From Lewinellaceae bacterium SD302 (GTDB taxonomy: Bacteria; Bacteroidota; Bacteroidia; Chitinophagales; Saprospiraceae): a DNA stretch of 64,000 nt. A model generated the notes under the pieces. The model was given only the letters and a program-made list of their open reading frames with translations. It searched no databases and was not told the DNA's origin. This document shows positions 1,186-60,516 of this stretch, one piece after another. The translations under genes were made by a program, and so were the position numbers. The DNA is taken from NCBI GenBank assembly GCA_002591745.1, contig PDLQ01000001.1:1-64000 (forward strand), written 5' to 3'. The stretch's first letter is position 1. Each line of letters starts with the position of its first letter.

Positions 1186-3003
1186 ATGTTGAATCCCAAA
1201 GTTGAACAAACACTTAAAAACACGAACGTGAGAAGTTGTTACAAAAGGAACATAGCTACGCTATGGTTCCTGTTCGGACTATGTTTTCTTGGTAACCACC
1301 TGGTTGCCGCGGCCCAAGATATAACACCGGTGCCCTACGATTCCGTACTAAACGTATTGCTTCGTCAATATTACCCGGAACTTGATCAGGATGAGTACCT
1401 GGCAATTAGCCGGCAGCCGGATGGTTACTACGTGGGTGTACAACAAAGCACGTCCACTTTTTCCAAAAGACAGTATCCTTTTTTGATCGAGGGCGAAGGA
1501 ACTTTTCGCAAGCTCCCATTTCGTGAACGCGGGGCAACTGACCTAAGTGCGCACTACGGCACCCTGACGGCCGGAAATTGGCGGGCCGCCCAGTTTGACC
1601 GTCATCTATATTTCGGTTTTCCCGGCTTCACTTCTGCCAGCATTGCTACTTTGTCAGCCAAAAAAAATCGCAGCGATCAGGAAACCCAACAGCTGGCCCG
1701 GGCCTACGCGGAGCACGCCATGAATTTGTTGAGCAACCAATACGGCACCAGTGACCCTGATTTGCGATTCAGCCTCGACGAGGCCACCTACGAATACCTC
1801 AGTCCGGAACAACTGGAAGAATATCTATATAACCAGCTACGGGCGATCAAGCACTACGGAGAGTTACCGTACGGCTTCGAAACACCGGTAGGAAACGCGT
1901 CCACCAAACAGGCCAATGAATGGCTGACCGGCTACGTAACCCTGCTGCAATACAACAGCCAGGAAGTAGCGGAAAATTTTATCGGGCAGATGCCGGATAC
2001 TTACGGAGAACATTTGAAATTTGCCGGAAAACTGCTACTGGAGAGCGTGCCGGAAAACGGTATTCTGATCACGGAATCCGATAACGACACTTATCCATTG
2101 CTATACCTTCAGCTGAAAGAAAATTTACGGACGGATGTCTTGGTGGTTAACCGCCACTTGCTGAACGTACCCCGTTACGTGAATATGCTGCGCAAGGGCA
2201 AGCAGGTCGGTGGTGCATTAAAACTGAGCACCGACGACGAGTTGGTCCGTTCCTGGTCTGGACGTTCGTTCATGCCCGGCGACCGCTACGAACTCTATAC
2301 CGCCTCCGAAGTGCTGGATGTTTTGACCGACCTGGCGGCTTATACCTCGGCTGATGTGATTCCGACCCTTCCTTTTGGCGGGATGCAGCTTTCGAAGAAA
2401 GTCGACGGTCCACTTTTTCGCCCCGAGGCTCGTCCACTGCGGATGGGAAATCTGGTGACCATGGATCTGATTGCCACGAACTTCAAGGATGGCCGGCAGG
2501 TAGCAGTTTCTACGGCCATTAATCAGGATTATTTTGCCTACGCTAACAGTTGGCAGCAGCTGGGACTGGTCTATAACCTTGGCGATGAGAAACCCAATTA
2601 CGCCATCGATCTTGAAGGCACCGTAGCCTGGAGTGCCTGGATGTTTCAGCGCACGCCTATCCGTTCCTATGGTAAGCAAAGTCGCTTTCTGCTGGATCAG
2701 ATGGAACGAATCATCGTCAAATCCAGTAACGTCATTCGTCTTGGTGGCCAGCACGATGTGGCATTTTCTCTGGTGAATCGCTATCTCAGTCACCTTGACT
2801 ATAAAGCTATCTTCGCCCGCCGTCAATCGATCGAACTGCTCGAGGAAATGCACGCTCTGGGTTATGACCCGGTTTCCATAACCGCCTACGCCAGCTATTT
2901 ACGCGACGTAATCGTAGATACTTCCGGGGAGGAGATGAGCCGGGGAGCTTACCATGATTTACGAAAGCTGAGCTACTATATTGCGCACGGGGAGTGGGAG
3001 TAG
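1186..3003 (+). CDS. Secreted protein resembling the soluble part of DUF2723 proteins
   Basis: A 605-residue protein with a long N-terminal extension and one hydrophobic segment (about residues 23-42) ending in AAAQ, consistent with a signal peptide or anchor. The central segment ENGILITESDNDTYPLLYLQ, followed by LRTDVLVVNRHLLNVPRY, strongly recalls the C-terminal soluble region of DUF2723/TMEM260-like membrane proteins. There a similar NGDNDTYPLWYLQ / RTDVRVVNLSLLN pattern follows the multi-helix transferase-like part. Here the polytopic part is missing, so this is a stand-alone soluble version. No catalytic function can be assigned. Bases 1641-1663 carry a copy of the dispersed TGCTACTTTG motif, encoding IATLSAK. 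The gene ends in a palindrome cluster facing the convergent YihY gene. Confidence 0.6.
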   Translation: MLNPKVEQTLKNTNVRSCYKRNIATLWFLFGLCFLGNHLVAAAQDITPVPYDSVLNVLLRQYYPELDQDEYLAISRQPDGYYVGVQQSTSTFSKRQYPFLIEGEGTFRKLPFRERGATDLSAHYGTLTAGNWRAAQFDRHLYFGFPGFTSASIATLSAKKNRSDQETQQLARAYAEHAMNLLSNQYGTSDPDLRFSLDEATYEYLSPEQLEEYLYNQLRAIKHYGELPYGFETPVGNASTKQANEWLTGYVTLLQYNSQEVAENFIGQMPDTYGEHLKFAGKLLLESVPENGILITESDNDTYPLLYLQLKENLRTDVLVVNRHLLNVPRYVNMLRKGKQVGGALKLSTDDELVRSWSGRSFMPGDRYELYTASEVLDVLTDLAAYTSADVIPTLPFGGMQLSKKVDGPLFRPEARPLRMGNLVTMDLIATNFKDGRQVAVSTAINQDYFAYANSWQQLGLVYNLGDEKPNYAIDLEGTVAWSAWMFQRTPIRSYGKQSRFLLDQMERIIVKSSNVIRLGGQHDVAFSLVNRYLSHLDYKAIFARRQSIELLEEMHALGYDPVSITAYASYLRDVIVDTSGEEMSRGAYHDLRKLSYYIAHGEWE

Positions 3004-3189
3004 ACGCTCGGCTTCGCCTTGCTTTTGGAGGGCCTTTGGCCTTTTAGACGTCGCTGCGCGACTTTTGGGAAGAGCTGGTTTTGTAGACGAATCTTTTGTT
3101 CTTCGGGCTATAGCACCCAAAAGGCGCTTGTGCCGTCCAAAAGCAAAGCGTCTAATAGCCGGAGGCGTCCAAGAGGCCGCAGGCCGCCC
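3004..3189. repeat. Intergenic cluster of short palindromes with TTTTGGACG linkers (locus B)
   Basis: The gap between two convergent genes is filled with miniature palindromes with 3-nt centres: GGCTTCGCC (3010-3018), GGCCTTTGGCC (about 3031-3041), GTCGCTGCGCGAC (about 3050-3062), GGCGCTTGTGCC (about 3123) and GGCCGCAGGCC (about 3175). Linkers such as CTTTTAGACG and CGTCCAAAAG separate them. Short open frames crossing the cluster (for example 2981-3391 on the plus strand) are not believable genes. Confidence 0.65.
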
Positions 3190-4885: not shown

Positions 4886-5827
4886 CTACTTTAGCTGCTC
4901 GATAATGTCGCTTGCATCAGCGGCTGGCCTATATTTATCGTCTCTTCCAAACCAGGTCGATTGTCTTTTAGCGTAGCGCCTGCTGTTGCGCTTGGCCAAT
5001 TCCAAAGCGTATTCCAGACTGGTAGAGCCCTCCAGGTAGGGGAAGAACTCCTGGTAGCCGACGGTTTGGAGGGCCGGCAGTTCGCGGTATTCGTAGAGGG
5101 CGACAACTTCGTCGAGCAGGCCATGGTCCATCATCTGATCCAGCCGTCTTTCGATACGGGCGTATAGGTTGAGCCGGTCGGGGTCCGGTGTATTGCGACT
5201 TTGTGTTTTCGGGGCGATGTAGTTCTCACGGGGAAGGGTAGACAAGTCGGGTTGAAAAAAATGACTGGTGAAAGATCGCTCGGCCTTGGGCCGTAAGAAA
5301 CTGGAATATGGTTTGCCAGCAGCCCAACTGACTTCCAGAGCACGTTGCAAACGACGGGGATTCTGGCGGTCTACGGTGGCGTAATAGTCAGGGTCAGCCA
5401 ATTCGACGGCTTTTTGCAGGCCCTCCAGACCCTCGTGTTTCAGGAGGCGTTCGACTTTGGCTTTGGTATTGACATCCACGCGGGGGAATTCGTTGAGGCC
5501 TTCGGTCACCGCGTCGAGGTACAGGCCGCTGCCGCCCACTATCACGACCTGCTCGCGGGTCCTGAAAAGCTCTTCCAGCAAGGTCAGTGCTTCACGGGCG
5601 AAAGCTCCGGCGGAAAGGGGCGCTAATACAGAGCGGTCAGCTACAAAATGATGCTTAACCTGGGCGAGTTCATCCGGATTTGGACGAGCGTTTCCGATCT
5701 CCATCTCCCGGTAGAATTGTCGACTGTCGGCGCTGAGAATCTCGGTAGATAACAGCTTTGCTACTTTGATAGCCAAAGAAGTCTTTCCGCTGGCGGTTGG
5801 TCCGCCGATAACAATAAGTTTAGACAC
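4886..5827 (-). CDS. miaA: tRNA dimethylallyltransferase MiaA
   Basis: Transfers a dimethylallyl group from DMAPP to N6 of adenosine 37 in tRNAs that read UNN codons. At 313 residues it is the standard length. The P-loop GPTASGKT is at residues 9-16, the catalytic Asp lies in SADSRQFYREMEIG (about 33-46), and the PRRLQRALEV segment and the C-terminal KRNSRRYAKRQSTWF tRNA-binding region are all present. ATG start at 5825-5827. Bases 5757-5776 (IKVAK, residues about 20-24) carry a copy of the dispersed TGCTACTTTG motif. It diverges from recQ with about 100 bp between starts. Identification is secure. Confidence 0.96.
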   Translation of the reverse strand: MSKLIVIGGPTASGKTSLAIKVAKLLSTEILSADSRQFYREMEIGNARPNPDELAQVKHHFVADRSVLAPLSAGAFAREALTLLEELFRTREQVVIVGGSGLYLDAVTEGLNEFPRVDVNTKAKVERLLKHEGLEGLQKAVELADPDYYATVDRQNPRRLQRALEVSWAAGKPYSSFLRPKAERSFTSHFFQPDLSTLPRENYIAPKTQSRNTPDPDRLNLYARIERRLDQMMDHGLLDEVVALYEYRELPALQTVGYQEFFPYLEGSTSLEYALELAKRNSRRYAKRQSTWFGRDDKYRPAADASDIIEQLK

Positions 5828-5929: not shown

Positions 5930-8119
5930 ATGAATGCAGGAGTCGCCCGCGAGGCGTTGAAAAAATATTTTGGTTACGCTAGCTTTCGTCCTCTCCAACT
6001 CGACATCATCGAAGGGGTCTACGCTGGTAAGGATGCCCTGGTGCTAATGCCTACCGGCGGTGGAAAATCCATGTGTTTCCAGATTCCTGCGGTAACCATG
6101 CCCGGCACTACGGTCGTTGTCTCACCACTGATTTCCTTGATGAAAGATCAGGTAGACGCCCTGAATGCCAATGGTATTCCGGCGGCTTTCCTCAACAGCA
6201 GTATGGATAGTGGGGAGGCTAGCAAAGTAGCAATGGCCTATGAGAACAACGAGCTCCAATTGCTTTACGTTTCCCCGGAACGGCTGTTGAGCGCTGGATT
6301 CTACGCCTTCCTCCGCCGCACCAGGGTGAATTTGTTTGCCATCGACGAGGCCCACTGTATTTCAGCCTGGGGCCACGATTTTCGTCCGGAATACACCAAG
6401 TTGCAATCCATTAAGCGGGCCTTCCCGGATACGCCGATCCTGGCCCTGACCGCCACAGCTGATCGTCTGACCCGCATCGATATCTGCAAGCAACTGGCCA
6501 TTCCGTCCGATAACCAGCACGTTTCTTCCTTTGACCGACCGAACCTTAGTCTTGAAGTTCGTCCCGGCCGACAGCGTCGTGAACAGATCGTCCGCTTTAT
6601 TCGGGAGCGCCCCGAGCAGCCGGGCATTATCTACTGTCTGAGCCGCAAGCAGACCGAGAACCTGGCCGGTAAACTCCGCGAGGCGGGATATGACGCCAAA
6701 TGTTACCACGCCGGGATGTCTTCCGGAGCTCGCGCAGATGTACAGTCGGATTTCGTGAATGACCGTACGTTAATTGTCTGTGCCACCATTGCATTCGGTA
6801 TGGGTATCGACAAGAGTAATGTTCGGTGGGTCATCCACTACACCATGCCCAAGAATCTGGAAAATTATTACCAGGAGATTGGTCGCGCGGGCCGGGATGG
6901 TTCTGATTCGGATACCCTGCTCTTTTACAGTTATAATGATTACCTGACGCTCCAGGATATGTTGGGAGGCAACCCCAATAGTGAAGTTCAGATCGCCAAA
7001 CTAAACCGCATGAAGGAGTATGCGGATGCCCTGGCCTGCCGGCGTCGGATCCTGCTCAACTACTTCAGTGAAGATAGCGGCGAAGATTGCGGGAACTGCG
7101 ATATCTGTAAAAACCCGCCCCAGCGATTTGACGGGACGGTACTGGCGCAAAAGGCTTTGTCAGTCGTAGCTCGTCTAAAGGAAAACGTGGGGGTCAATCT
7201 TGCCATCGACGTATTGCGGGGGGCTCAGACGGGTACGATTAGGCAGAATGGCTACGACCGGGTAAAGACTTACGGGGCGGGCCGTGACGTAAATACCTAT
7301 AACTGGAATCACTACTTCGGCCAGCTCATCAACCTCGGTTACGTTTACGTGGCCCACGAAGATTTTAACAAGCTGAAACTGACCAATGCTGCCCGCCGGG
7401 TTCTGTTCGAGCGTGAAAAAGTAGAACTGGTCCGCTTTGAAACGGTAAAGGCCCGCCGGGAAACTGAAGCCAAGACCAAAGTCAGAGTAGATAAGTCGGG
7501 TAACCCGCGTTTACGAGACGGTCTCTTCGAGCACCTGCGGGCGCTGCGGAAGGAACTGGCCAAGGCCAAAGGTGTACCGCCCTACAGTGTCTTCAGTGAC
7601 AAGACCCTGGAAGAAATGGCCGCCATGAAACCTACGAGTGGTGACAGCCTGGCAAAAGTAAGCGGGGTAGGGGAGTTCAAGCTTCGTGCCTACGGTGATC
7701 GCTTCATTGATGCCATCTGCGAATACGAAAGTATCGTCCGATCATCCCCGAAGATCAGCGATGGCAAAGAACCCGCAAAGCCCAAGAAGAAAGAACCAAC
7801 GACTATTTCGGACACCATGATGGACTCCGTCAAATGCTTCAAGTCGGGCATGGACGTCAATGAGATCGCCGAACAGCGTAGGCTCAGCCCGGCTACCATC
7901 ATAGGGCACTTATCCAAAGCTTATCAACGGGGGGAGGAATTGGATATGACCCGGCTGGTGGATAAGAACGTCATCAACCAGGTTGCGGAAGTGCTCAACG
8001 GGCTGGACGATAAAAAGTCGGTAACCCTGAGCCAACTGATGCCGCACTTTGAAGAAAATACGATCAGCTACAATGAGTTGCGCTTCGCAAAATTGCATCT
8101 GGAGCGGAACGCGTCATAA
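5930..8119 (+). CDS. recQ: ATP-dependent DNA helicase RecQ
   Basis: A 3'-5' DNA helicase of recombination and replication-fork repair. At 729 residues it contains, in order: the superfamily 2 helicase core with Walker A PTGGGKS (41-47), DEAH box (139-142) and the RecQ loop AWGHDFRPEY; helicase motif VI in EIGRAGRDG; a zinc-binding segment with four Cys (ACRRR...DCGNCDIC, about 370-395); a winged-helix RQC domain; an HRDC domain (about 530-600, FEHLRALRKELAKAKG); and a C-terminal helix-turn-helix extension common in Bacteroidota and Firmicutes RecQ. Bases 6217-6236 (ASKVAM) carry a copy of the dispersed motif. Downstream is a palindrome cluster and a convergent gene. Confidence 0.96.
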   Translation: MNAGVAREALKKYFGYASFRPLQLDIIEGVYAGKDALVLMPTGGGKSMCFQIPAVTMPGTTVVVSPLISLMKDQVDALNANGIPAAFLNSSMDSGEASKVAMAYENNELQLLYVSPERLLSAGFYAFLRRTRVNLFAIDEAHCISAWGHDFRPEYTKLQSIKRAFPDTPILALTATADRLTRIDICKQLAIPSDNQHVSSFDRPNLSLEVRPGRQRREQIVRFIRERPEQPGIIYCLSRKQTENLAGKLREAGYDAKCYHAGMSSGARADVQSDFVNDRTLIVCATIAFGMGIDKSNVRWVIHYTMPKNLENYYQEIGRAGRDGSDSDTLLFYSYNDYLTLQDMLGGNPNSEVQIAKLNRMKEYADALACRRRILLNYFSEDSGEDCGNCDICKNPPQRFDGTVLAQKALSVVARLKENVGVNLAIDVLRGAQTGTIRQNGYDRVKTYGAGRDVNTYNWNHYFGQLINLGYVYVAHEDFNKLKLTNAARRVLFEREKVELVRFETVKARRETEAKTKVRVDKSGNPRLRDGLFEHLRALRKELAKAKGVPPYSVFSDKTLEEMAAMKPTSGDSLAKVSGVGEFKLRAYGDRFIDAICEYESIVRSSPKISDGKEPAKPKKKEPTTISDTMMDSVKCFKSGMDVNEIAEQRRLSPATIIGHLSKAYQRGEELDMTRLVDKNVINQVAEVLNGLDDKKSVTLSQLMPHFEENTISYNELRFAKLHLERNAS

Positions 8120-9672: not shown

Positions 9673-10520
9673 TATTCGCCGGTGGGTAGTTCTTCGAGGG
9701 TGAAAGTGCGACTGACGGGGTTGAGGGGAGCGTCTACGGCCTTGCCTTCCTTATCCATCAGGGTAAGCGTCAGGGTATGCTCGCCCATGCCCATACCTTT
9801 GATGTAGTAAGATTTCCAGTCGCTGAATTTAGCTAATGGTTCTCCGTCCAGTTCGGCCATTACAGTATAACCTTCCGCGAAGGGAGCATTAATGGGGTAG
9901 AAGTCGACCATTATGTTTTCGGTGGCCTTTTTTCCACGGTAAGTTCCTTTGGGGCGACTGTAGAACAACATTGGTTCTTTGATGTCTTCCATGCTGGTAA
10001 AGGCACCGTCCTGGGACATGACCTTGGCCACCCGGGCGGCGCGATCGCGCTTGATACTTTGGTGGTAAGACCGACTAAGGAAGGTCAGCATGTAATGCTC
10101 GCCGTCGGTAATGTCCTGCTCGAAACTGGGCTCGTATTTAGCCATATAGGGCTCGTTGTCAATGATCAGGTGGATATGCTGCCCCTTATCGGAGTTGGCA
10201 CACATCAGTTGTTCGGCGTCGGGCGTTTGTACACCGAATTCGTAGCCGGATACGTCGAAATCGAATTTGCCATTGCTGTAGGTAATGCCATTGATCTGGG
10301 CATCGGGGAAGCTATGGGAGGAAGGCATATCGACCAGGGTTACTCCGTCGGTTCGGTCAATGATTTCAAAGCCCGGTGCGTCGAGGACGGCCTCGTTACT
10401 TGGTTGTTCGGCTTCGATGTTTTCTTCCTCCATGGCTACTTTGTCAGCCATTCCCTCATTACCGCCACAGGCGAAAAGGAACAACAGGAAGAGTGAGAAT
10501 ACTGGAATTAATGGTCTCAT
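9672..10520 (-). CDS. Lipoprotein of unknown function
   Basis: A 282-residue protein with a signal peptide and lipobox (LLFLFACGG, Cys at about 18), then an acidic linker and a beta-rich domain. The central segment GQHIHLIIDNEPYMAKY and C-terminal GMGMGEHTLTLTLMDKEG suggest a domain of the kind seen in secreted sugar- or metal-binding proteins, but I do not recognise a family. It is translationally coupled to the phosphoesterase gene and divergent from the copper ATPase gene (57 bp between starts), so a shared control region is possible. The linker residues ADKVAM coincide with a near-match of the dispersed motif (10431-10450). Confidence 0.6.
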   Translation of the reverse strand: MRPLIPVFSLFLLFLFACGGNEGMADKVAMEEENIEAEQPSNEAVLDAPGFEIIDRTDGVTLVDMPSSHSFPDAQINGITYSNGKFDFDVSGYEFGVQTPDAEQLMCANSDKGQHIHLIIDNEPYMAKYEPSFEQDITDGEHYMLTFLSRSYHQSIKRDRAARVAKVMSQDGAFTSMEDIKEPMLFYSRPKGTYRGKKATENIMVDFYPINAPFAEGYTVMAELDGEPLAKFSDWKSYYIKGMGMGEHTLTLTLMDKEGKAVDAPLNPVSRTFTLEELPTGE

Positions 10521-13805: not shown

Positions 13806-13819
13806 GCTTCAAAGTAGCC
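13806..13819 (-). repeat. Intergenic copy of the dispersed TGCTACTTTG motif
   Basis: GGCTTCAAAGTAGCCG starts 2 bp after the DUF4249 stop. It is one mismatch from the core (CAAAGTAGCC at 13810-13819) and sits just before the octamer hairpin array. Confidence 0.6.
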
Positions 13820-16368: not shown

Positions 16369-17256
16369 ATGACCAATAAAGAAAAAGGCCGCATTGATGA
16401 ATTGACGGAGCACTATCAAAGTATGCCCCGTTTTGACGTCGAGCAAGGTTTAGGTAAACTTCGGGCCAGGCTCGGGGAGACGGAAAATCAGGTCGGTAGT
16501 GTAGGGAAAGCCAGTCGTAAGCCATCCAGGCGTCGCTGGCTGTCCGTTGCGGCCTCGCTGGCTGTACTGCTGCTTGCCGGAGCCGTTTACTTTGCTACTT
16601 TGCCAGCCAAAACTACCATAACTGCCGAAGGTAAAACCGAGCGTATCCTGCTGCCGGACGGATCCGAGGTACTGCTAAAGGACGGCGGTACGCTAAGTTA
16701 TGACGAAGATTACGGAAAAGATGATCGCCGGATTGATCTGAAAGGCGAAGCTTTTTTCTCCGTAATTCCCAATCCGGAATTGGCATTTTTGGCCGAGCAG
16801 GGGCCAGTTACCCTGCGGGTGATCGGGACGACCTTTAATCTGAAGGCTCAGCCTGAACTGGATATCTTCGAAGTAGAAGTTGCCAGCGGTAAGATCATGC
16901 TGGAAACCAAAGAAGAGACGTTACCGGTGGCCGCCAAAGAGTGTGGGCGTTCCGAAGGACCCGGGCAGTTGAGCAAAATGCCGGCTCCCAATCTGAATCG
17001 CCACGCTTGGCGAACTGGTAAAATGGTTTTTGAAGACCAATTACTGAGCGAGGTAGTAGAGATCGTGGAGAACACCTATGACGTGAAGATCAAAATCTCC
17101 AATAAAGATATGAAGGCCTGTGATTTTGCCCTGACCGCAACTTTCAACCAGGCTGACCTCGCTGAGGTGCTGGCCCACCTTGAAAAGTTGAGTGGCGGCC
17201 ATTTCCTTAGCTCCAAATCAGGCCGTGTCTACCGCTTGATAGACTGGTGTGAGTAA
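16369..17256 (+). CDS. FecR-type anti-sigma factor
   Basis: Inner-membrane anti-sigma factor for the ECF sigma factor upstream. From the ATG at 16369 the protein has 295 residues: a cytoplasmic N-terminus of about 55 residues, one membrane helix (about 57-77), and a periplasmic FecR domain (EGKTERILLPDGSEVLLKDG; VIGTTFNLKA; FEVEVASGKIML). The C-terminal DUF4974-type domain (VVEIVENTYDVKIKI, then LAEVLAHLEKLSGG) contacts the receptor's signalling domain. A GTG at 16360 is an alternative start. Bases 16591-16612 (FATLPAK at the end of the membrane helix) are a copy of the dispersed motif. Twenty bases separate it from the receptor gene. Confidence 0.92.
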   Translation: MTNKEKGRIDELTEHYQSMPRFDVEQGLGKLRARLGETENQVGSVGKASRKPSRRRWLSVAASLAVLLLAGAVYFATLPAKTTITAEGKTERILLPDGSEVLLKDGGTLSYDEDYGKDDRRIDLKGEAFFSVIPNPELAFLAEQGPVTLRVIGTTFNLKAQPELDIFEVEVASGKIMLETKEETLPVAAKECGRSEGPGQLSKMPAPNLNRHAWRTGKMVFEDQLLSEVVEIVENTYDVKIKISNKDMKACDFALTATFNQADLAEVLAHLEKLSGGHFLSSKSGRVYRLIDWCE

Positions 17257-24560: not shown

Positions 24561-24584
24561 ACACTGCTACTTTGCTAGCCAAAA
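24561..24584 (+). repeat. Intergenic copy of the dispersed TGCTACTTTG motif
   Basis: ACTGCTACTTTGCTAGCCAA lies in the 270-bp gap between the divergent WbqC and S8 protease genes (exact core 24565-24574). The rest of the gap is AT-rich promoter-type sequence with no gene. Confidence 0.7.
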
Positions 24585-24658
24585 AATAGATTTAAGTGGC
24601 TCCCCGGAGCTATTATTCATACCTGTACTATCATACTTTTTAATAAAACCATTCTTTA

Positions 24659-31914: not shown

Positions 31915-31924
31915 GGAGGATTAT

Positions 31925-39512: not shown

Positions 39513-42500
39513 TTAGCCCAACTCTACCACCAGATCATCCTGCTCCACCAGTGTTTTTTCCTTCAAGTGAATACCCGTAACCTCCCCGTCCATCGGTGCG
39601 GTGATGGTGCTTTCCATTTTCATGGCTTCAATAATGAAGAGAGGGTCGCCGGATCTAACTTCCTGCCCCTTTTTGACCAGGATGCGACTCAGGTTGCCCT
39701 GTAGCGGTGAGCCAACTTCGTTGTCGGCCATAGCTTTACGGTTGGCGACTACCTTAATATTCTGCCCCTGGTCGTGGACTTGAACGGAGCGGGTCTGGCC
39801 GTTTAGTGCGAAGAAAACCAGTCGGTTACCCTGGTTGTCCGGCTCGGTCTTGTTGAGGTATTTGATGGTAATGGTCTTGCCGGGGGCAATGGTGACCAAA
39901 ATCTCCTCATTGGGTTCCAGGCCGTAGAAAAAGGCGGGGGTGGGGAGCCTGCTGACGTCACCGTAATTGGTCTTGAACTCGTGGTAATCGGCGTAAACCT
40001 TCGGGTAGAGTAGGGCGCTCAGTAATGCCTGTTCGTCCGGTAGCTCACCGAATTTAGCTTTGAATTCCTGCTTTGCTACTTTGAAGTCAATCGCCTCCAA
40101 ATGAGCGTTGGGTCGATCAGTGTATGGCTTTTCATCTTTGAGGACCATCTTCTGCATCTCGGGCGGGAAACCGCCGTCGATCTGCCCCAGGTCGCCGCGC
40201 ATCAGCGATTTTACACTATCCGGGAAGTCCAGTTTATGGCCATCATTCAGGATGTCTTCCTTGTTGTAACCGTTGCTGGTCATGAACATGGCCATGTCTC
40301 CGACCACCTTGCTACTGGGTGTTACTTTGATGAGGTTGCCGAATAGGTCGTTGGCAATCGCGTAATTAGCTTTGATGGTCTCGAACTGCTCTTCCAGCCC
40401 TAGTCCGCGCGCTTGCGGGCGCAGGTTGCTGTACTGGCCGCCGGGAATTTCACTCTCGTAAATACTGGCGGTTCCGGCCCGTAATTCCGTTTCGAAGGGG
40501 TAGTAGTAGCTGCGTACGGTTTCCCAGTAAGCGCTGAATTCATTGAGTTTGGCCAGATTCATTGGCTGCTCCCGTTCGTGGCCTTCCATCATGGCCACCA
40601 TGCTGTTGAGGCTGGGCTGGCTGGTGAGGCCGCTAAGGGAGGACATGGCGCAGTCGATCACGTCCACGCCAGCATTTACTGCGCTGAGGTAAGTGGCACT
40701 TTGAATTCCGCTGGTGTCGTGAGTATGCAGGTGGATTGGGAGATCGGTTGTTGACTTCAAAGTAGCAATGAGCCGTTCTGCCGCAAGCGGCTTGAGGAGG
40801 CCCGCCATATCCTTAATGGCCAGAATGTGGGCTCCGGCGTCTTCCAGTTTTTTGGCCAGCTCTACGTAATACTCGAGGTTGAATTTGGTCTTGGTCGGGT
40901 CCAGAATATCGCCGCTGTAGCAGATACAGGCTTCGGCCAGGGAGTTGGTCCGTTCGCGGACGGTCTTGATGGAGACCAACATATTCTCCACCCAGTTCAG
41001 GGAGTCAAAAATGCGGAAAAGGTCGATGCCGGTTTTCGCCGCTTCCTCGATGAATTGTTCGATCAGGTTGTCCGGGTAAGCCTTATAACCCACCGCGTTG
41101 CTGCCCCTGAGGAGCATCTGCAGCAGGGTGTTGGGTACGGCTTTACGAATTTTTGCCAGCCGCTTCCAGGGATCTTCTTTGAGAAATCGGTGGGCAACGT
41201 CGAAAGTGGCCCCGCCCCAGACCTCCATGCTGAAGAGTTCGCCGGCTTCACTTTTGGCAAAACTTTCGGCTACGTTCAGAAGGTCGTAGCTGCGCATGCG
41301 GGTAGCCAAGAGGCTCTGGTGACCGTCGCGGAAGGTGGTGTCGGTGTATTGAATTTCCTTACTGTCCTTGAGCCATTTGACAAAACCCTCACGGCCTAAG
41401 TCTTCTAAGCGGTTCTTGGAGCCGGTGGGGAATTCGGCGTAGCGCTCATAGGCGGGCACTTTCGCTTTCAAAAAGCTTTTACCTTCAACCACCTTACCAG
41501 CCACATCCGGATTGCCGTTCACAACCGTCTCGGCTAAGTAGCGAAGCAGGCGGGTGCTACGGTCACGGAAGTTTCGTGAATCCATCAACTTCGGATGCTC
41601 CGGAATAAAGCGCACGGTTGCTTGTCCCTTGCGGAAAGTACCATTTTCCAGTAGGTTCAAGAGGAAACTTATATTGGTCTTGACGCCCCGGATACGGAAC
41701 TCCCGCAGGGCGCGGTGAAGCCGGTCGCTGGCTCCTTCCAGGGTTCGCCCCCAGGCAGTGACTTTCACCAGCAGGCTATCGAAATAGGGACTGATGACCG
41801 CGCCGGGGAAAGCTGAACCGGCATCCAGCCGGATACCCATGCCACTGGCGGAGCGGTAGGCGATGAGGGTGCCGTAATCCGGCTTGAAATCGTTGGCCGG
41901 GTCTTCGGTGGTTACCCGGCACTGGATAGCGAAGCCCTGGGCTTTTACGTCCGATTGCTCGTTGATAAATATAGTCTTGTGACTCAGCGGGTAGCCCATG
42001 GTGATGAGGAACTGGCTACGCACGATATCAATGCCGGTGATTTCCTCCGTGATGGTGTGTTCCACCTGCACGCGGGGGTTCACTTCGATGAAGTAAATAC
42101 TTTCGTCCTGATCGACCAGGAACTCTACCGTTCCGGCACAGTAATAGCCTACTTCATGGCCCAGGCGTAGGGCGTATTCGTAAAGTTTATCTCTGGTTTC
42201 TTGTTTCAGATTGGCAGCTGGCGCTACTTCAACTACTTTTTGAAAACGACGCTGCACGGAACAATCACGTTCGTACAAGTGGACCAATTTGCCGTGGCGA
42301 TCACCCAGCAACTGAACCTCAATGTGGCGTGGGTTCTCAATGAATTTTTCCAGGAATACCGTACCATCGCCGAAGGCTTTCAGCGCTTCGTTGCTGGCCT
42401 CTACGACTTCTACTTTCAGGTCGTCTTCGTTACGTACGACTCGCATTCCGCGTCCGCCGCCGCCGCTGGCTGCTTTAATTATGACGGGAAAGCCAATTCG

Positions 42501-43920: not shown

Positions 43921-45333
43921 TTATAATTTGACGGCTTTATCAAGAGATTTTGTGAGGGCGCGGAGTTTGTTGTAAACCTCCTGGGTTTCGCTTTCCTCGT
44001 CGCTGGCGGCTACCACTCCGGCCCCGGCCTGGTAGTAGAGTGTATTGTCCTGACTAAAGAAAGAACGGATCAGAATGGCCTGGTTAATGTTGCCGTTGAA
44101 ATTGACGAAGCCGATCGCCCCGCCGTAAAATCCGCGTTGTTGGTTTTCGTATTCGCCGATCAGTTCCAGGGCCTTGTATTTGGGCGCACCGCTAAGGGTA
44201 CCGGCCGGGAAGGTGTCGCCGAAAATACGGGCTGCCTGGCTACGGTCTTCCAGTCGGCCCTCCACGGTACTGACCAAGTGAATGACGTGACTGTAGTAAT
44301 GAACGTCCCGTAAGCTCTTTACTTCCACCTTACTGGTGTGGCGACTCAAATCATTGCGGGCTAAATCCACCAGCATAACATGCTCCGCATTTTCTTTGGG
44401 GTCTTTTAGCAGGGCTGCAGTAGCGGCTTGGTCTACCTCATCATTTCCGGTCCGTTTGTAAGTGCCGGCAATGGGGTTAAGACGGGCCGTTTCGCCGTCA
44501 ATAACCAATTGAGCTTCCGGACTGGAACCCATGATTCGGTAATCGCCGTAGTCGAAGTAGAAAAGGTAGGGAGAGGGATTAACACTCCTTAGTGCCCGGT
44601 AGACCTGAAATTCATCGCCCTGGAAGTCCCGCTGGAATTGACGGCTCAGTACAATCTGGAATACATCGCCCACTTGGCAGTGATGCTTACCCTTGCTGAC
44701 CAGCTCCCGGAACTGTTCATCCGTCAGATTGCTGCGTTCCTCTCCGGTGGGGCGGAAGGGGTGGACGGCTCCGGGACGGCGTAGGTAACCTTCTAATTCG
44801 TCCAGTCGGCTAGCTTCGCCGGTGGGGCAGTTTTCCAGCAAAATCAACTCATCGCGGTAGTGCTGGTAAATGAGCACGAAACGGTAAAGATGGTAGCGGA
44901 TATCGGGAGAACGGAGTACGCGTTTTTCCTCGTCGAAACTGAGCGTGTCGAAATACTGTACGCCCTCGAAGTTGGTGTGGCCGATCAGTCCGTTGAAGGG
45001 TTCCAGTTCAGGGTGGTCGCCATAGTCGAATTCGAAGCGGTCCGTAAAACGCTGTAAGGCATCGGGCACGTGTTCGTGGTCTCTGACCCGCATGCCGCCC
45101 GTTTGCTGGCGGGGCAGTCTCACGTTGATCACCCCCTTTGCTACTTTGAAGTCCGCCAAAGTATCCAGACCGATGAAGGAGTAATAATGTGCGTTATCAC
45201 GGCTCTCGTTACTTTCCAGTAATACGGGGTCGGTATAGCGGTCGCGCAGGCTCAGGTAGACGAGCACTGGCGTAAGCATATCCGCGGTGATGCGGCGGGT
45301 ATTGACGGTGATGTTTATTTTATGGTCGATCAT
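43921..45333 (-). CDS. trpE: Anthranilate synthase component I
   Basis: Converts chorismate to anthranilate. 470 residues. The N-terminal domain carries the tryptophan feedback motif LLES (38-41). The chorismate-binding domain is complete: PSPYLFYFDYGDYRIMGSSPE; NPIAGTYKRTG; DLARNDLSRHTSKV; TFPAGTLSGAPK; GFYGGAIGF. The start ATG (45331-45333) lies 10 bp beyond a terminator hairpin preceded by a leader peptide gene, so expression is probably controlled by attenuation as well as by feedback. Bases 45139-45148 (FKVAK) carry a dispersed-motif copy. The remaining trp genes are not in the window. Confidence 0.96.
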   Translation of the reverse strand: MIDHKINITVNTRRITADMLTPVLVYLSLRDRYTDPVLLESNESRDNAHYYSFIGLDTLADFKVAKGVINVRLPRQQTGGMRVRDHEHVPDALQRFTDRFEFDYGDHPELEPFNGLIGHTNFEGVQYFDTLSFDEEKRVLRSPDIRYHLYRFVLIYQHYRDELILLENCPTGEASRLDELEGYLRRPGAVHPFRPTGEERSNLTDEQFRELVSKGKHHCQVGDVFQIVLSRQFQRDFQGDEFQVYRALRSVNPSPYLFYFDYGDYRIMGSSPEAQLVIDGETARLNPIAGTYKRTGNDEVDQAATAALLKDPKENAEHVMLVDLARNDLSRHTSKVEVKSLRDVHYYSHVIHLVSTVEGRLEDRSQAARIFGDTFPAGTLSGAPKYKALELIGEYENQQRGFYGGAIGFVNFNGNINQAILIRSFFSQDNTLYYQAGAGVVAASDEESETQEVYNKLRALTKSLDKAVKL

Positions 45334-48435: not shown

Positions 48436-48452
48436 GACTTCAAAGTAGCAAT
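48436..48452 (-). repeat. Intergenic copy of the dispersed TGCTACTTTG motif
   Basis: GACTTCAAAGTAGCAATG contains an exact core (48441-48450). It lies between the prolyl oligopeptidase start and an octamer array. Confidence 0.7.
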
Positions 48453-51971: not shown

Positions 51972-53915
51972 ATGCGAGGGATTATCATATTTACCATAAC
52001 CACCAGCATTTGCTACCTGAGTCTTTTACTTCCTTTTGGAATGTCGACAGAACAATCGTCAGCCAATCGGGGCAGAAGTGAACTCGAGGCGGCCCGTCTG
52101 GCGGTAATTGGGGACTTTAAGGTCGGATTAGACAAATTGAGCCGTGAAATCGAATTGTACCAACAAGTAGCAGCCACTGAGCAGGTTGCGCAACTACGGC
52201 AACAACACGCCGCTACCCGCGAGGCATTTAAAAGGGTAGAATGGTTGCTGGAATACATCGACCCAACTGCGGTAAAAAGATTCATCAACGGCGCGCCCTT
52301 GCCTAAAACGGAACCTCACGTTCCAGCCATCGTTATCATTGAACCCAGTGGTTTGCAGCGACTGGATGAACTGGTCTGGGAGGAAGAACCAGACTTTGCC
52401 GCCGTCCGGAAAATGCTGAATAAATTGCAAAGGGAATACGCTGATCTTCAGTTGTACGCCCGTAATCGCCGGCTACAGCATCGCCAGCTATTCGAAGCAT
52501 TAAGACTTGAAGTAGTACGCATCTTTACCCTGGGTGTCAGTGGGTTCGATACTCCAGCATCGGGTCTGGCGATGACCGAAAACCTGGCTACTTTGTTAGC
52601 CATAGATCATGTTTACGACTACTATGCTGAATCAGTAGAAGAACAAGATGCTATTCTTCACCGGCGTATCGTCACCGCTTTACGCAGAGGCGAAGAATTA
52701 TTAAGCGGTGCAGACTTCAACACTTTCAACCGGCTGACTTTCCTGACCGAAGTGATCAACCCGCTCACCAGCGGTCTGGTAGACGCCCAGGAATTGCTGG
52801 AAGTTGAATTTTCCGCCGCTGCCCGTAATCCGGTGAACCCCAGAGCCAAATTACTCTTCGGAGCAGATTGGTTGAACGCCGACGTTTACGCCAAGTTGCC
52901 GCTCTCCGATTACGAAGCCGCTCGCGTAGAATTGGGGCGCTTATTATTTTTTGATCCTATACTTAGTACCAATAATCAACGGGCCTGCGCCAGTTGCCAC
53001 CTTCCGGAAAAAGCATTTACCGATGGCAGTGCCCGCAGCCTTGCTCTGGACAGAGAGGGAACCATTTTACGTAATAGCCCGACACTGATTAATAGCGTTT
53101 TTGCCGAAAAATTCTTTTATGATTTACGCGAAGAGCGGCTGGATCGCCAAATCAAGCACGTGGTCCACGACAGCCTGGAATTCGCTACTGATTTTATTGA
53201 GATCGTAGAAAAGCTGAGTCAAAGTGAGGAGTACGTAGCATTGTTTCGGGCCGCCTACCCGGAAAATCCTGATTACATGCTAAGTCGTTACAGCGTTAGT
53301 GACGCCTTGGGCCGCTTCGTCAAGAGCTTGCGCGCTCATAATTCTCCTTTTGACCGGATGGCCAGGGGAGAAGCGGCTGCGGATTCGGAAGTAGCTGCGG
53401 GCTTCAACTTGTTTATGGGCAAGGCCGCCTGTGGAACCTGTCATTTCGCGCCGACCTTTAGCGGACTAGTGCCTCCTTATTTCCGTGAAAGCGAATCGGA
53501 AGTACTCGGCGTCCCCGCCACTAAAGTTTGGGAAAACGCACAAATCGATTCCGACCTGGGTCGTCTGACCAATTCAAAGCCCGGTGACGAAGCTTACTTC
53601 CACGCCTTTTCTTTCAAAACGCCAACGGTTCGTAATGCCGCACTGACGGCTCCCTACATGCACAATGGCGTTTACGCCGAGCTGGAAGAAGTGATGGATT
53701 TTTACAATCGAGGCGGAGGTGCCGGCATCGGCAGTTTCGTCGACCACCAGACCCTGCCGCCGGATGCACTGGAACTGGATACGGAAGAGATCGGCAGTTT
53801 GATCACTTTCATGGAAGCGCTAACGGATACGAGTGGATTGACAAAAACCCCCATCCATCTACCCGAATTTTCGGTAGCCGAATGGAACGGACGCAGGATC
53901 GGCGGTGAGTACTAA
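51972..53915 (+). CDS. Di-haem cytochrome c peroxidase with long N-terminal domain
   Basis: About 647 residues from the ATG at 51972, preceded by a terminator; an in-frame ATG at 51915 would lie before that hairpin. A signal peptide is followed by a roughly 300-residue helical domain (EAARLAVIGDFKVGLDKLSR; REAFKRVEWLLEYIDPTAVK) resembling imelysin-like or helical-bundle extensions. Then comes the MauG/CcpA domain with two c-type haem sites, CASCH (about 338) and CGTCH (about 486), and the distal segment APYMHNGVYAELEEVMDFYN. It reduces peroxide or acts as a MauG-type oxidase in the periplasm. The FG-GAP lipoprotein gene overlaps its end by 11 bp. Confidence 0.9.
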   Translation: MRGIIIFTITTSICYLSLLLPFGMSTEQSSANRGRSELEAARLAVIGDFKVGLDKLSREIELYQQVAATEQVAQLRQQHAATREAFKRVEWLLEYIDPTAVKRFINGAPLPKTEPHVPAIVIIEPSGLQRLDELVWEEEPDFAAVRKMLNKLQREYADLQLYARNRRLQHRQLFEALRLEVVRIFTLGVSGFDTPASGLAMTENLATLLAIDHVYDYYAESVEEQDAILHRRIVTALRRGEELLSGADFNTFNRLTFLTEVINPLTSGLVDAQELLEVEFSAAARNPVNPRAKLLFGADWLNADVYAKLPLSDYEAARVELGRLLFFDPILSTNNQRACASCHLPEKAFTDGSARSLALDREGTILRNSPTLINSVFAEKFFYDLREERLDRQIKHVVHDSLEFATDFIEIVEKLSQSEEYVALFRAAYPENPDYMLSRYSVSDALGRFVKSLRAHNSPFDRMARGEAAADSEVAAGFNLFMGKAACGTCHFAPTFSGLVPPYFRESESEVLGVPATKVWENAQIDSDLGRLTNSKPGDEAYFHAFSFKTPTVRNAALTAPYMHNGVYAELEEVMDFYNRGGGAGIGSFVDHQTLPPDALELDTEEIGSLITFMEALTDTSGLTKTPIHLPEFSVAEWNGRRIGGEY

Positions 53916-55482
53916 AATTAATGATTTGTCTAAGGAAAGTTTATTTATGCTGATTACGTGCTTCGCGGTGCTGGGTTGCAGCCGGGAGGTCGACGGTGAT
54001 TTGCCGTTAACCGGTGAGGAACTCAGTGCCGTTTTTTGTGGTAATTGCCACCTGCGGCCAGAGCCAGGCGATTTAACGTGGAGCATTTGGTCGGAGGTTA
54101 TCCTTCCCAGAATGGGAAATCGTCTTGGTATTTATGACAGCATACACAACCGGGCCGCAGCACTGTCGTTAGATCCCTTTGGAGGAAACTCTGAATTTTT
54201 AAAGTCGCGGTATCCTGATTCTCCGGTACTGCCCGAAGAGCAGTGGTTGGCGATCAAGGATTATTACCTGGCCTCATCTCCGAAGTCGTTAGGTGTTGAT
54301 ACCTTGGAAATGAGCGATGAAACCGACCTTTTTCGTCCGAGGTTCCCCGAAGTCTACCTGTCACCTCCAGCGGGTACGCTGCTCAGGTTTTTACCCGAAT
54401 CCCGGCAAATCTTATACGCGGATGCTCATAAACAGCAGCTCATACTTTTTAGTGATGACCTGAAGCCGCAGTCTGCCTTGGCGGTAGGGGAGGGAGCAAC
54501 ATCTTTCGAAGTGGCTGATAACGGGGATGCCTACCTCTCCGTTCTGGGTTCATTTTCCCCGACTGACGGACCATTAGGTAGTGTATGGCGGTTGGCTGAC
54601 CAAGGTGAAACAGAGCTGATTATTAGCGGTTTGCGGCGTCCTGGCAAAGTAGCAGTGTCGGATATAAATCAGGATGGTCTTACGGACTTGACAATAACCG
54701 AATTCGGTAAAGAAACCGGAAGGCTGGCCTGGTGGACCGAGAGCGATCCGGGCAAATGGACACCACACGATCTTTTTCTGGGCCCCGGAGCTACCGAAGC
54801 GATTCCCGTAGACCTCAATCAAGACGGGCAGTTGGAAATACTGGCGCTGCTGGCCCAAGGGAACGAGCGGGTCGTGCGGTACCAGTACGGCCCCGATGGC
54901 TTCAGGGAGGAAACATTGATTCGGTTTCCACCCAGTTACGGTTCCAGTTCATTGGATACGCTGGACTGGAATGGCGACGGACTCCTGGATCTCCTGTACA
55001 CCGCCGGAGATAACGCGGATTACCAACCGATACTTAAGCCTTATCATGGCATCTATTTGTATCTGCAAAGACCAGACGGTGATTTCGAGCAATCGCTATT
55101 CTTGCCTTTGCCGGGAGCTTACGATGCGGAAGTAGCCGATTACGATCAAGACGGGGATCTTGACATTGTGGCCATTTCATTTTTCCCCGACTTTCCCCGG
55201 CAGCCGGAACAGGGGATCGTATATTTTGAATGTATCGCCGAGGGTGAATTCATTGTTCATCGGTTATCCGCAGCCACCTCCGGACGATGGATCAGGCTGG
55301 ACGCTGCTGATTGGGACAATGATGGGGACATAGATATCGGCGCCTCCTCACTGGCATTCGAAACCGTACCGGACAATGGGGAAGTTGCCGGTTGGGTAGA
55401 ACAGGGGCTACCGTTCGTCATTTGGGAAAATCAAACTCAACATCCCGCTGCGAGAACTTACCACCCGTCCGATGGTTTGTAA
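53905..55482 (+). CDS. FG-GAP/VCBS-repeat lipoprotein with a CXXCH motif
   Basis: A 525-residue lipoprotein (GTG start at 53905; lipobox FAVLGC, Cys about 25). A single CGNCH haem-c-type motif near residue 47 is followed by a beta-propeller with at least five FG-GAP/VCBS calcium-binding loops: DINQDGLTDLTI; DLNQDGQLEIL; DWNGDGLLDLL; DYDQDGDLDIV; DWDNDGDIDIG. It overlaps the cytochrome c peroxidase gene by 11 bp and is presumably translationally coupled. A shared envelope redox role is likely (inference). A 54645-54654 dispersed-motif core encodes GKVAV just before the first FG-GAP loop. Confidence 0.82.
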   Translation: MSTKINDLSKESLFMLITCFAVLGCSREVDGDLPLTGEELSAVFCGNCHLRPEPGDLTWSIWSEVILPRMGNRLGIYDSIHNRAAALSLDPFGGNSEFLKSRYPDSPVLPEEQWLAIKDYYLASSPKSLGVDTLEMSDETDLFRPRFPEVYLSPPAGTLLRFLPESRQILYADAHKQQLILFSDDLKPQSALAVGEGATSFEVADNGDAYLSVLGSFSPTDGPLGSVWRLADQGETELIISGLRRPGKVAVSDINQDGLTDLTITEFGKETGRLAWWTESDPGKWTPHDLFLGPGATEAIPVDLNQDGQLEILALLAQGNERVVRYQYGPDGFREETLIRFPPSYGSSSLDTLDWNGDGLLDLLYTAGDNADYQPILKPYHGIYLYLQRPDGDFEQSLFLPLPGAYDAEVADYDQDGDLDIVAISFFPDFPRQPEQGIVYFECIAEGEFIVHRLSAATSGRWIRLDAADWDNDGDIDIGASSLAFETVPDNGEVAGWVEQGLPFVIWENQTQHPAARTYHPSDGL

Positions 55483-57228: not shown

Positions 57229-58518
57229 ATGACCAAATTGCCTGAGCCCGATCTTTCCAAAGCGAAAGAAATATCACGCCATTATGACTTCGTAAGGAAG
57301 CAAACCATTACCCTCTGCGAGCCCTTACAGCCGGAGGATTACGTGGTTCAACCCACCGGAGATGTCAGTCCACCCAAATGGCACCTCGGCCACACGACCT
57401 GGTTCTTTGAAAACTTCGTCCTGGCCAAAGAGCTGCCGGATTACGAATTGTTCGATGAACGTCTTAACTGGTTCTTCAACAGCTACTACGAGAGCCAGGG
57501 GCCCCGTATCCTGCGGACTAGTCGTGGGAACATGACCCGTCCCAGTTTAGACATTGTTCTGGCATACCGCAAACACGTTGATACGGAGATGAAGCGTCTT
57601 TTCGCCCATCACGATGGCCTTTTGCCCAGGGCGCTGGGCGACCTCATCACCCTTGGCCTTCACCACGAACAACAGCACCAGGAGTTATTGCTGACTGACA
57701 TCAAGTACATTCTGGGCACGAATCCGCTACATCCCGCCTTGGTAGAATCCGCTGATATTTTGGCTGACAAAGTAGCAATGCCGGTTGTGAAACAAGGGTG
57801 GTTGGCAATACCGGAAGGACTGTACGAAATAGGCTATCAGGGCAATGACTTTTGTTGGGACAATGAGCTCAGCGTTCACAAACACTACCTGGAAGCGTTT
57901 GAAATCGGTGATCGCCTGGTTACCAACGGTGAATACCTCCGGTTTATGGAAGACGATGGCTACGCCCGCTTCGAACTCTGGCAAATGGAGGGGATCGAAT
58001 GGGCGCGTGGCTTAGATGTTAAGGCGCCGCTATACTGGTACGAAAATGATGGCCAGTGGCAGTATTATACCCTCAACGGAATGCGCCCAATTGATCTAGA
58101 CGTACCAGTCACGCATATTTCCTGGTACGAGGCCGATGCGTACGCCCGCTGGGCCGATGCACGCCTGCCTACCGAACAGGAATGGGAGATCGCTTGCCGC
58201 CAGAATGCTAGAGAAATATCCAAATCAAAGGGCTGGGTCGAAAATACCCGTTATCATCCTCAGGTTAAGGATGTTGACCAGGATCACCAGTTCCTCGGCC
58301 ATGCTTGGGAATGGACCAACTCAGCTTATTTACCTTATCCCCGCTATCCTCGCCCGGAAGGTGCTTTAGGAGAATACAATGGAAAGTTCATGATCAACCA
58401 GATGGTACTCCGCGGAGGATCTTGTGCTACGCCGGAAAGTCATATTCGTCTTACCTACCGTAATTTTTTTCAAACCGACAAACGCTGGCAGTTTACCGGC
58501 ATCCGGCTAGCCCGCTAA
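57229..58518 (+). CDS. egtB: Ergothioneine synthase EgtB (sulfoxide synthase)
   Basis: A non-haem iron enzyme that joins hercynine to cysteine or gamma-glutamylcysteine with O2 to form the sulfoxide precursor of ergothioneine. 429 residues. The N-terminal DinB-like bundle carries the iron-binding histidines in WHLGHTTWFFENF (H52/H55) and HHEQQHQE (H146 and H150). The C-terminal FGE-sulfatase domain runs from about residue 190 to the end (WYEADAYARWADARLPTEQE; GHAWEWTNSAY; MVLRGGSCATP). EgtD follows 9 bp later. Which thiol donor is used cannot be decided by eye. Bases 57761-57780 (ADKVAM) carry a copy of the dispersed motif between the two domains. Confidence 0.94.
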   Translation: MTKLPEPDLSKAKEISRHYDFVRKQTITLCEPLQPEDYVVQPTGDVSPPKWHLGHTTWFFENFVLAKELPDYELFDERLNWFFNSYYESQGPRILRTSRGNMTRPSLDIVLAYRKHVDTEMKRLFAHHDGLLPRALGDLITLGLHHEQQHQELLLTDIKYILGTNPLHPALVESADILADKVAMPVVKQGWLAIPEGLYEIGYQGNDFCWDNELSVHKHYLEAFEIGDRLVTNGEYLRFMEDDGYARFELWQMEGIEWARGLDVKAPLYWYENDGQWQYYTLNGMRPIDLDVPVTHISWYEADAYARWADARLPTEQEWEIACRQNAREISKSKGWVENTRYHPQVKDVDQDHQFLGHAWEWTNSAYLPYPRYPRPEGALGEYNGKFMINQMVLRGGSCATPESHIRLTYRNFFQTDKRWQFTGIRLAR

Positions 58519-59523: not shown

Positions 59524-59529
59524 CTGGTT

Positions 59530-60183
59530 TTAACACCCACTGAAAGGGGACATGCCGTTGATCAGAAAGCCAAAATGTTCCATACTGGTCGTCACCTTGT
59601 CTCCGCACTCAATTGTCTTGTTGGGTACCTCGTTCGGGTTGGTCGGTAGTTCGATCCACGAGCGGAGGACGTAATCTTTACGCAAACAATTCAATGGTTC
59701 TTGTCCTGAATTCAGGTAAAAACGAAATTCGCTGATGTTGTCCTGAGTATTAGGTACGGTTGGGTCACTTCCCTCGGGCCCGGCAAAGGTCCAGCTTTCT
59801 TCGGTCAGGTGAATGAAGACCGGCTTTTCATCGATTAGGTAATAGCTTTCAGTGGCCCCGAAATGATCGCCCTGGTAATAATCGTGTTTGATCATGACCA
59901 ATTCGCCCGCTTTACGAAAAAAACTGATCCTGCCACCCGTGGGGTCATCCGGGCAGTCATACTCCATAGAGTCCATTGATAGGTCAGCTTGCTTTAACCA
60001 GCCGTCAATTTCCTGGAAACGCTCTCTGATGATGACAGCGGGGTCTGCTGATACTTTCTCTTTGCTTTCCAGAGACGATGCCGTCGCCTCCGGCGAATCG
60101 ACCTGCCCACCACAGGCAGATAACAGGATCAGAAGTACAAGTAACAGGTTTAATTGAGGATGGTGATTTTCCGGGCGTTGCAT
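59530..60183 (-). CDS. Lipoprotein of unknown function
   Basis: A 217-residue lipoprotein (lipobox LILLSACGG, Cys about 24) with a short acidic linker. A beta-rich domain has the features SYYLIDEKPVFIHLTEESWTF across about residues 110-130 and four later cysteines. I do not recognise a family. Convergent with egtD and only 6 bp from its stop. Confidence 0.6.
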   Translation of the reverse strand: MQRPENHHPQLNLLLVLLILLSACGGQVDSPEATASSLESKEKVSADPAVIIRERFQEIDGWLKQADLSMDSMEYDCPDDPTGGRISFFRKAGELVMIKHDYYQGDHFGATESYYLIDEKPVFIHLTEESWTFAGPEGSDPTVPNTQDNISEFRFYLNSGQEPLNCLRKDYVLRSWIELPTNPNEVPNKTIECGDKVTTSMEHFGFLINGMSPFSGC

Positions 60184-60516
60184 GCGGTTGATTTGGTAAA
60201 AAAATATTAGAAGTAGTCATTTAATACAAATACACCGATACTTGCTAATAGGCCTTAGGCTTTTACGGTTAAAAGGTGTTCTCTCTCGCATCAAATCAGC
60301 ATTGCTACTTTGTTAGCCAAAAAGATAATCTCTAAAAATACTCTTTTATGTTAAGAGCTTGTTTGGGACAAGCTATGAACTGAAAAACAATGATTTATGG
60401 TTCTGACTATACCATCAAATTGTGAGTTTGGCGGGTCAAGCGATCTATCTTTGGTGACGCCAGGTTCATAAATGCTTGATTTTCAGGAAATAGAAATCCA
60501 GACAAGCTCTAAGTGA
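60184..60516. other. 330-bp intergenic region with one dispersed-motif copy
   Basis: AT-rich gap between two minus-strand genes. It carries an exact TGCTACTTTG motif (next entry) and a segment TTTTCAGGAAAT (60481-60492) resembling one near 31980 (TTTTCAGGAAATC, each followed within a few bases by AAATCC or similar). No gene was recognised. Confidence 0.4.
60299..60320 (+). repeat. Intergenic copy of the dispersed TGCTACTTTG motif
   Basis: GCATTGCTACTTTGTTAGCC followed by AAAA, the closest match to the full consensus (core 60303-60312). Confidence 0.75.

Follow-up and report, generated by a model that had tools for sequence, protein, structure and literature searches.

The first 64,000 nucleotides of contig PDLQ01000001.1 of Lewinellaceae bacterium SD302 (the window) carry 16 exact copies of the 10-base word TGCTACTTTG, eight on each strand. 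This word is the core of a dispersed, directional motif of ~27 bp, which we read as the species dialect of a self-DNA mark found across the genus. A preliminary description of this DNA had placed the same 16 copies at the same coordinates, and their number is far above chance, as dinucleotide shuffles of the window give a mean of 0.10 copies and a largest value of 2. The three copies of the one-mismatch form GGCTACTTTG that it listed are likewise present, at 10434..10443 (plus strand, with a flank that matches the motif), 13810..13819 (minus strand) and 52586..52595 (plus strand), and with them the described 10/9 split in orientation is reproduced. Six further one-mismatch copies bring the matches in the window to 25, against 3.25 expected.

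With gene boundaries taken from our own simple gene caller, five copies are intergenic: 23938..23947 (minus strand; extended motif ~23926-23952), 24565..24574 (plus; ~24560-24586), 31931..31940 (minus; ~31919-31945, in a divergent region), 48441..48450 (minus) and 60303..60312 (plus). The count of five agrees with the preliminary description, but the copy at 23938, which is intergenic here, had been read as coding in another frame. The other copies lie within called genes. The frame reads ATL at 1644..1653 (plus; extended motif ~1639-1665) and 16593..16602 (plus; ~16588-16614), and KVA at 5759..5768 (plus; ~5754-5780, in a gene on the minus strand), 6223..6232 (minus; ~6211-6237, within recQ), 21471..21480 (minus; ~21459-21485), 34394..34403 (plus; ~34389-34415), 45139..45148 (plus), 54645..54654 (minus) and 57768..57777 (minus). 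Two more copies fall in the pyruvate carboxylase gene (39513-42974, minus strand), at 40074..40083 (plus, KVA) and 40758..40767 (minus, ATL), and both align without gaps to relatives. Other words recur in the k-mer table of the window, with CATTAGATCA and AATGATCTAATG / AATGATTTAATG each occurring 5-9 times.

Abundance and anatomy of the mark

The whole assembly (5,478,864 bases in 147 contigs) contains 1,344 exact copies of TGCTACTTTG, 675 on one strand and 669 on the other, compared with 16 (9 and 7) for the reversed word. When synonymous codons were shuffled within genes over 422 kb of the genome, 1.7 genic copies were expected (SD 1.3, largest 6 in 200 shuffles) and 49 are observed. Since the word exceeds both its genome-wide control and the codon shuffles, it is real and acts at the DNA level; the dinucleotide and codon shuffles rule out chance and codon usage as its source. 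Most coding copies had been said to read KVA or ATL, and 37 of the 49 genic copies do, with the remaining 12 in other frames (QSS, CYF, LL), which again places the constraint on DNA.

Alignment of 226 sites from 867 kb of the species' own DNA extends the core to an asymmetric motif of ~27 bp, RRC[A/T][T/C]TGCTACTTTGNN[A/G]GYC followed by an A-rich stretch, beyond which the information content drops off. A C at position -4, numbered from the G of GCT, is present in 96% of the sites. The extended consensus proposed earlier and its GACTTC variant are both recovered, with NN-AGYC following the core in 128 of the 226 sites and N-AGYC in 55. In the 422 kb, single-mismatch forms are near background save at core positions 1, 7 and 8, the commonest near-miss having G at the first core base (11 versus 2 in the control). 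A short inverted repeat, CCTGGCCGA...CCGGCCAGG, also recurs in the first two stretches of own DNA (C1 and C2; its 9-mers are found ~28-31 times in 422 kb) and is perhaps a terminator or an element resembling repetitive extragenic palindromic (REP) sequences, separate from the mark.

Placement, origin and conservation of sites

Over the same 422 kb, 56 of 105 sites are intergenic and 49 genic by our own gene caller. Site density is 1.27 per kb in divergent, 1.18 in tandem and 0.33 in convergent intergenic regions (the last from only 2 sites in 6 kb) and 0.13 in genes, so that intergenic density is ~8.3 times the genic one. Six congeners, which carry the related words described below, show a similar picture, with 54 of 94 sites intergenic, 40 genic and a 7.5-fold excess in density. 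Sites in tandem regions are oriented along the genes in 20 cases and against them in 13, at widely varying distances.

Both pyruvate carboxylase sites are gapless against four congeners and three further relatives. A homolog spanning the site is available for 12 of the 49 genic sites, ten of which rest on one or two homologs only; the core is gapless in 11 of the 12 and gapped in one. Where testable, these alignments point to sites arising by substitution and not by insertion, and an inserting element is largely refuted by the gapless orthologs. Site conservation was assessed in a stretch of one congener (G014) compared with four species (G008, G003, G002 and G018), with a sixth site at 2107, matching the core only, left out. 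For four of the five full sites, one or more of G008, G003 and G002 have the mark at the orthologous place, in alignments of 68-79% DNA identity, one G002 case being placed by gene anchors only. A different dispersed repeat lies near a mark site in this stretch: a ~60-bp element (L133:2264-2323) is found at >30 places in G003 at ~85-90% identity and at several in G002. The segment L133:6214-6255 is also repeated, in G018.

Related words in the genus

Pyruvate carboxylase orthologs group the genome with Neolewinella persica, N. maritima and Lewinella spp. (Lewinellaceae), and three of nine proteins scanned from it carry type IX secretion system (T9SS) sorting domains, a sign of Bacteroidota. 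In a tree of this one gene, from which G010 was left out, the species branches before 19 other genus genomes with support 100/99; the tree program flags it as a long branch, so its place is unsure. The word TGCTACTTTG is not common property of these relatives, as it has 1-12 copies in each of 20 other genus genomes and at most 56 in 395 other genomes of the order (in G370, where the reversed control has 15).

By k-mer enrichment of congener stretches we found that congeners bear other words of like layout, mostly GCACCYGCG-NNN-GCGC. Among 17 genus genomes (G003, G010, G011 and G018 being left out of this count), GCACCYGCGNNNGCGC has 204-1,315 copies in 12 and 4-41 in the other five, including 6 in the window genome; outside the genus it has 0-10 copies in 379 genomes, with 0-9 for reversed controls. 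Another form, GCTCCCGCGNNCCNGC, is commonest in G004 (259 copies), followed by the G004 sister G017 (81) and G007 (49), with 0-5 copies in each of the remaining 18, and ACCYGCGCTCCGSCGC has 316 copies in G001, 148 in its sister G007, 26-46 in seven others and none in the window genome. G017 and G007 are mixtures at lower counts, and 80 kb of G017 yielded no clear word.

The cores of these forms align as GCACCTGCG, GCACCCGCG, GCTCCCGCG and the own GCTACTTTG, and after each come a short spacer and another block containing GC. C at -4 is present in 73-95% of sites in seven congeners. The G001 and G007 form is a poorer fit to the alignment: it has no leading GC, and its spacer differs. As many as 5 of the 9 core positions differ within the genus, and the distribution of the forms varies along the one-gene tree. 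Judging from this alignment, we read the words as dialects of one mark across the Lewinella/Neolewinella genus. The motif of the window is species-specific within a genus of related words, a feature that lay beyond the view of the preliminary description.

No word like the mark emerged from other genera of the family, covered by 80 kb each of G021-G024 and 20 kb each of G081 and G155. Enriched words in these neighbours are TTCGTAATTAA in G023 (L168-L171), in 6-8 one-kb bins, and CACCCCGTGACT in G021 (L160-L163), in 4-5. Within the genus, the k-mer table of G005 (L124-L127) is dominated by tandem TTGCAGGGG units. Marks of G019 (L107, near 3605-3637 and 15043-15077) form closely spaced inverted pairs with the potential to fold into hairpins; hairpin-forming inverted pairs have been reported for terminators made of DNA uptake sequences (DUS) (PMC2397512).

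Strand-specific spacing

Along the first 362 kb (C1) there is no local strand bias (50 versus 40 sites), which rules out strand-biased elements such as FtsK-orienting polar sequences (KOPS), and the strands alternate in excess, forming 64 runs where 45.4 are expected (z = +3.98). Over the 867 kb, 157 adjacent pairs are on opposite strands and 63 on the same strand; shuffling the strand labels gives a mean of 112 opposite pairs (SD 7.3), with none of 20,000 shuffles as high. Leaving out the first contig gives 94 opposite and 37 same-strand pairs. Same-strand pairs closer than 2 kb number 8 against ~59 expected and those at 2-3 kb 13 against 29.5, with counts near expectation beyond 3 kb (expectations ignore contig ends), and opposite-strand pairs show no depletion. 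Each strand taken alone is evenly spaced, with a mean of 7.5 kb and a coefficient of variation (CV) of 0.56 and 0.59 versus a simulated 0.96 (SD 0.08). There are no mark-free deserts in the 867 kb: the largest gap is 13.6 kb, and four gaps exceed 12 kb against 9.9 expected. Mark-free mobile islands are not apparent either: no mobile gene was recognized by eye in the four largest gaps.

Clustering of sites between genes accounts for the close opposite pairs but not for the missing same-strand pairs. A simulation of C1 that keeps the genic/intergenic split predicts 23.9 same-strand pairs closer than 2 kb where 2 are observed; below 600 bp it predicts 8.6 pairs of either kind, and none is seen on the same strand and 12 on opposite strands.

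Congener stretches bearing other dialects (1.02 Mb) show the same exclusion, with 17 same-strand pairs closer than 4 kb against 63 expected, a surplus at 4-6 kb (38 versus 26), and 98 opposite and 43 same-strand adjacent pairs; these counts pool 194 sites found with a looser pattern in many species, including low-copy genomes such as G017 and some orthologous pieces. Opposite pairs closer than 2 kb more often point outward, both in own DNA (46 versus 25, P = 0.017) and in congeners (25 versus 11, P = 0.029; both two-sided binomial). From the own and congener pair statistics together, the exclusion is strand-specific and common to dialects. Copies on one strand exclude each other over 2-4 kb and copies on opposite strands do not, so the machine that reads the mark probably works on one strand or to one side of each mark.

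A tailed-phage group carrying the mark

Scanning viral contigs with TGCACCTGCGNCCGCGCC matched 59 stretches, of which a recount with the looser pattern left 41 with one copy and 18 with two or three. The 41 single-copy stretches have varied G+C and look like chance, and 11 of the 18 multi-copy stretches belong to one related group. One 38.7-kb contig of this group has six full clade-B marks in the 29 kb covered by L343 and L311, about one every 5 kb, at 4680, 9973, 13559 and 16543 of L343 and at 4022 and 7761 of L311. All marks of the phage contig that are comparable in near relatives are kept (three in L344, two in L345); full marks are missing from the distant relatives L346-L349. Tape-measure, head-protease and helicase proteins are encoded on the contig, and its relative L296 encodes a terminase, so we assign the contig to a tailed phage. 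Another viral stretch of 8.8 kb (L328) has three looser and two strict marks and no match longer than 1 kb to the phage group. The own word TGCTACTTTG occurs in a single viral stretch (L342), at a level like chance.

Interpretation of the mark

Most probably the mark acts in the manner of a DNA uptake sequence, read strand-specifically; we give this reading a probability of roughly one half. What it builds on was computed directly, namely the mark and its copy number, the related words in most of the genus genomes examined and the strand-specific spacing, as well as the substitution origin where testable and the conservation of some sites. From these we infer that there is a receptor, that uptake is biased, that recombination drives the process and that the process is polar. 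A receptor or processing protein would prefer mark-bearing DNA, and the preferred DNA would be recombined back into the chromosome, so that the mark would be written in place by substitution, mostly at tolerant positions; a shift in receptor specificity would lead to marks being rewritten.

The likeness to uptake sequences had been suggested from the window alone, with recombination control as an alternative that may still hold. It gains from the copy number, the strand balance, the genic and intergenic sites with intergenic excess, the substitution origin, the scarcity of near-miss variants and the dialects along the tree; the strand-specific exclusion, the want of a convincing type IV pilus motor and the carriage by phage speak against it or go beyond it. 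Known uptake sequences are described as having ~1,500-2,000 copies or more, genic sites with an intergenic excess, no orientation bias and an origin by substitution (PMC1939737), and the dialects of uptake words as following phylogeny (PMC3630211).

Closest among known systems are the DUS of the Neisseriaceae, where a non-palindromic word of a thousand copies has species dialects that follow phylogeny, one of them with an inserted base, and one genome has two dialects (PMC3630211); DUS, too, are reported at genic and intergenic sites (PMC1939737). The mark differs in being unrelated in sequence and phylum, longer and provided with an A-rich tail, in its strand-specific exclusion and in that no convincing motor of a type IV pilus emerged from the PF00437 search. 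DUS spacing has been linked to the length of conversion fragments, which the regular spacing of the mark recalls, and many recent DUS are argued to have arisen by recombination and not by point mutation (PMC2397512). The uptake signal sequence (USS) of the Pasteurellaceae is similarly asymmetric, with ~1,500 copies, a substitution origin and two versions (PMC1939737), and is again unrelated to the mark in sequence and phylum. Its even spacing was reported by Karlin, as cited in PMC1939737, whose discussion judges it less even than a signal for compaction would require, and an apparently random distribution is cited in PMC2346458.

Several results weigh against an uptake sequence. Orientation-blind uptake does not predict an orientation-specific exclusion, and in H. 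influenzae orientation is reported to have no effect on uptake (PMC1939737). The competence proteins offer little discrimination: ComEC is present in all 21 genus genomes and DprA in 20 of them, and 10 and 11, respectively, of the 14 control genomes have them too. Matches to the pilus/secretion ATPase family PF00437 are marginal and partial in 20 of the 21 genus genomes; the best reaches 24.9 bits over ~84 of 370 positions in frames of ~950 residues, and 11 of the 21 genomes reach or barely pass the 24.9-bit cut-off. A convincing type IV pilus motor was therefore not found in the 21 genomes with PF00437, pilins and secretin not being part of the search. Carriage of the clade-B mark by the phage group at host-like density is unexpected if mobile DNA should lack the mark. 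Conservation of the G014 sites is incomplete: G008 has lost one, G018 has one in degenerate form, and between the anchors in G002 and G018 one is missing. Finally, for the only 12 congener sites that could be mapped on own DNA, an own site lay within 300 bp on the same strand in none and on the opposite strand in two (controls 10.5% and 9.4%), so no in-place conversion between these dialects is visible.

Judged by PF00437, with pilins and secretin outside the search, the machinery that serves known uptake sequences seems to be missing. If the mark is an uptake word, these marginal matches suggest that DNA probably crosses the outer membrane in another way than in the known systems. Somewhat short of even odds, we also entertain that the mark is neither a classical uptake sequence nor a classical Chi site but a genus-wide, strand-tracked mark with dialects, served by a machine other than a type IV pilus, laid out in independent, evenly spaced strand tracks and adopted by phages.

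The main rival, unlikely as we consider it, is a Chi-like signal. A helicase-nuclease entering from broken ends would read the mark in one orientation and switch from degradation to recombination; each strand would be its own track needing a mark every several kilobases, and phages would gain by carrying it. Like Chi, the mark is asymmetric and over-represented, and a directional machine reads Chi. Exclusion that acts on each strand independently is in keeping with two tracks, and the phage carriage and the regular ~7.5 kb per strand (gap CV 0.56-0.59 versus ~0.96 at random) also count in favour of this rival. Known Chi sites, however, are 5-8 bases long and strongly oriented to replication. 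The mark is far longer, as many as 5 of its 9 core positions change within a single genus, and it is strongly intergenic (~8-fold). It is also strand-balanced, at 50 versus 40 in C1 and 675/669 genome-wide, counts that refer to an assembly in 147 contigs rather than to replication arms.

Rather improbable is a binding site for a protein that organizes the chromosome or sets directional boundaries, with sites spaced so as to form or orient chromosome domains. Such a protein would suit the regular per-strand spacing, the rigid sequence and the intergenic preference, but each dialect requires hundreds to >1,000 sites to be rewritten, which ordinary binding-site turnover explains poorly, and phage carriage is hard to explain. 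We regard as very improbable a regulatory or promoter element upstream of genes: the preference for tandem and divergent over convergent regions would be in its favour, yet 49 of 105 sites lie within genes in both orientations, orientation in tandem regions is mixed (20 versus 13) at variable distances, and strands exclude over kilobases. A mobile or REP-like repeat inserting copies of itself is hardly credible, for high copy number and the one gapped site of 12 are set against a non-palindromic mark, gapless cores at the other 11 sites, information that fades outside ~27 bp and kilobase-scale same-strand exclusion.

Significance

By its sequence features, the mark resembles the DNA uptake signals of other bacteria and seems to be a self-recognition mark that has gone unreported. 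Among the matches listed in open PMC text, which does not take in subscription papers or preprints, none returned for the 10-mer core is about such a mark, and no such word is described in Bacteroidota apart from A-rich candidates in one source (PMC7965970). That source reports natural competence and a preference for own DNA in Riemerella columbina, of the same phylum, and its candidate words are A-rich k-mers few-fold over expectation that its authors left unresolved, with nothing like the excess of 1,344 versus 16 seen here (PMC7965970).

In the sources cited here, genome-wide uptake words are established only in the Neisseriaceae and Pasteurellaceae, and the known or proposed receptors are type IV pilins, the best candidate for USS being a minor pilin (PMC12616744). 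If the uptake-like reading is true, the genus would provide an independent case in Bacteroidota, with ~20 species, several dialects and no convincing pilus motor, and a fresh test of molecular drive versus selection in the spread of uptake words. The same-strand exclusion statistic is simple and applicable to existing DUS and USS genomes, where it could reveal polarity. For the biology of this group, the mark could explain a self-DNA preference of the kind reported in R. columbina (PMC7965970), and barriers to DNA exchange would be predicted between species with different dialects.

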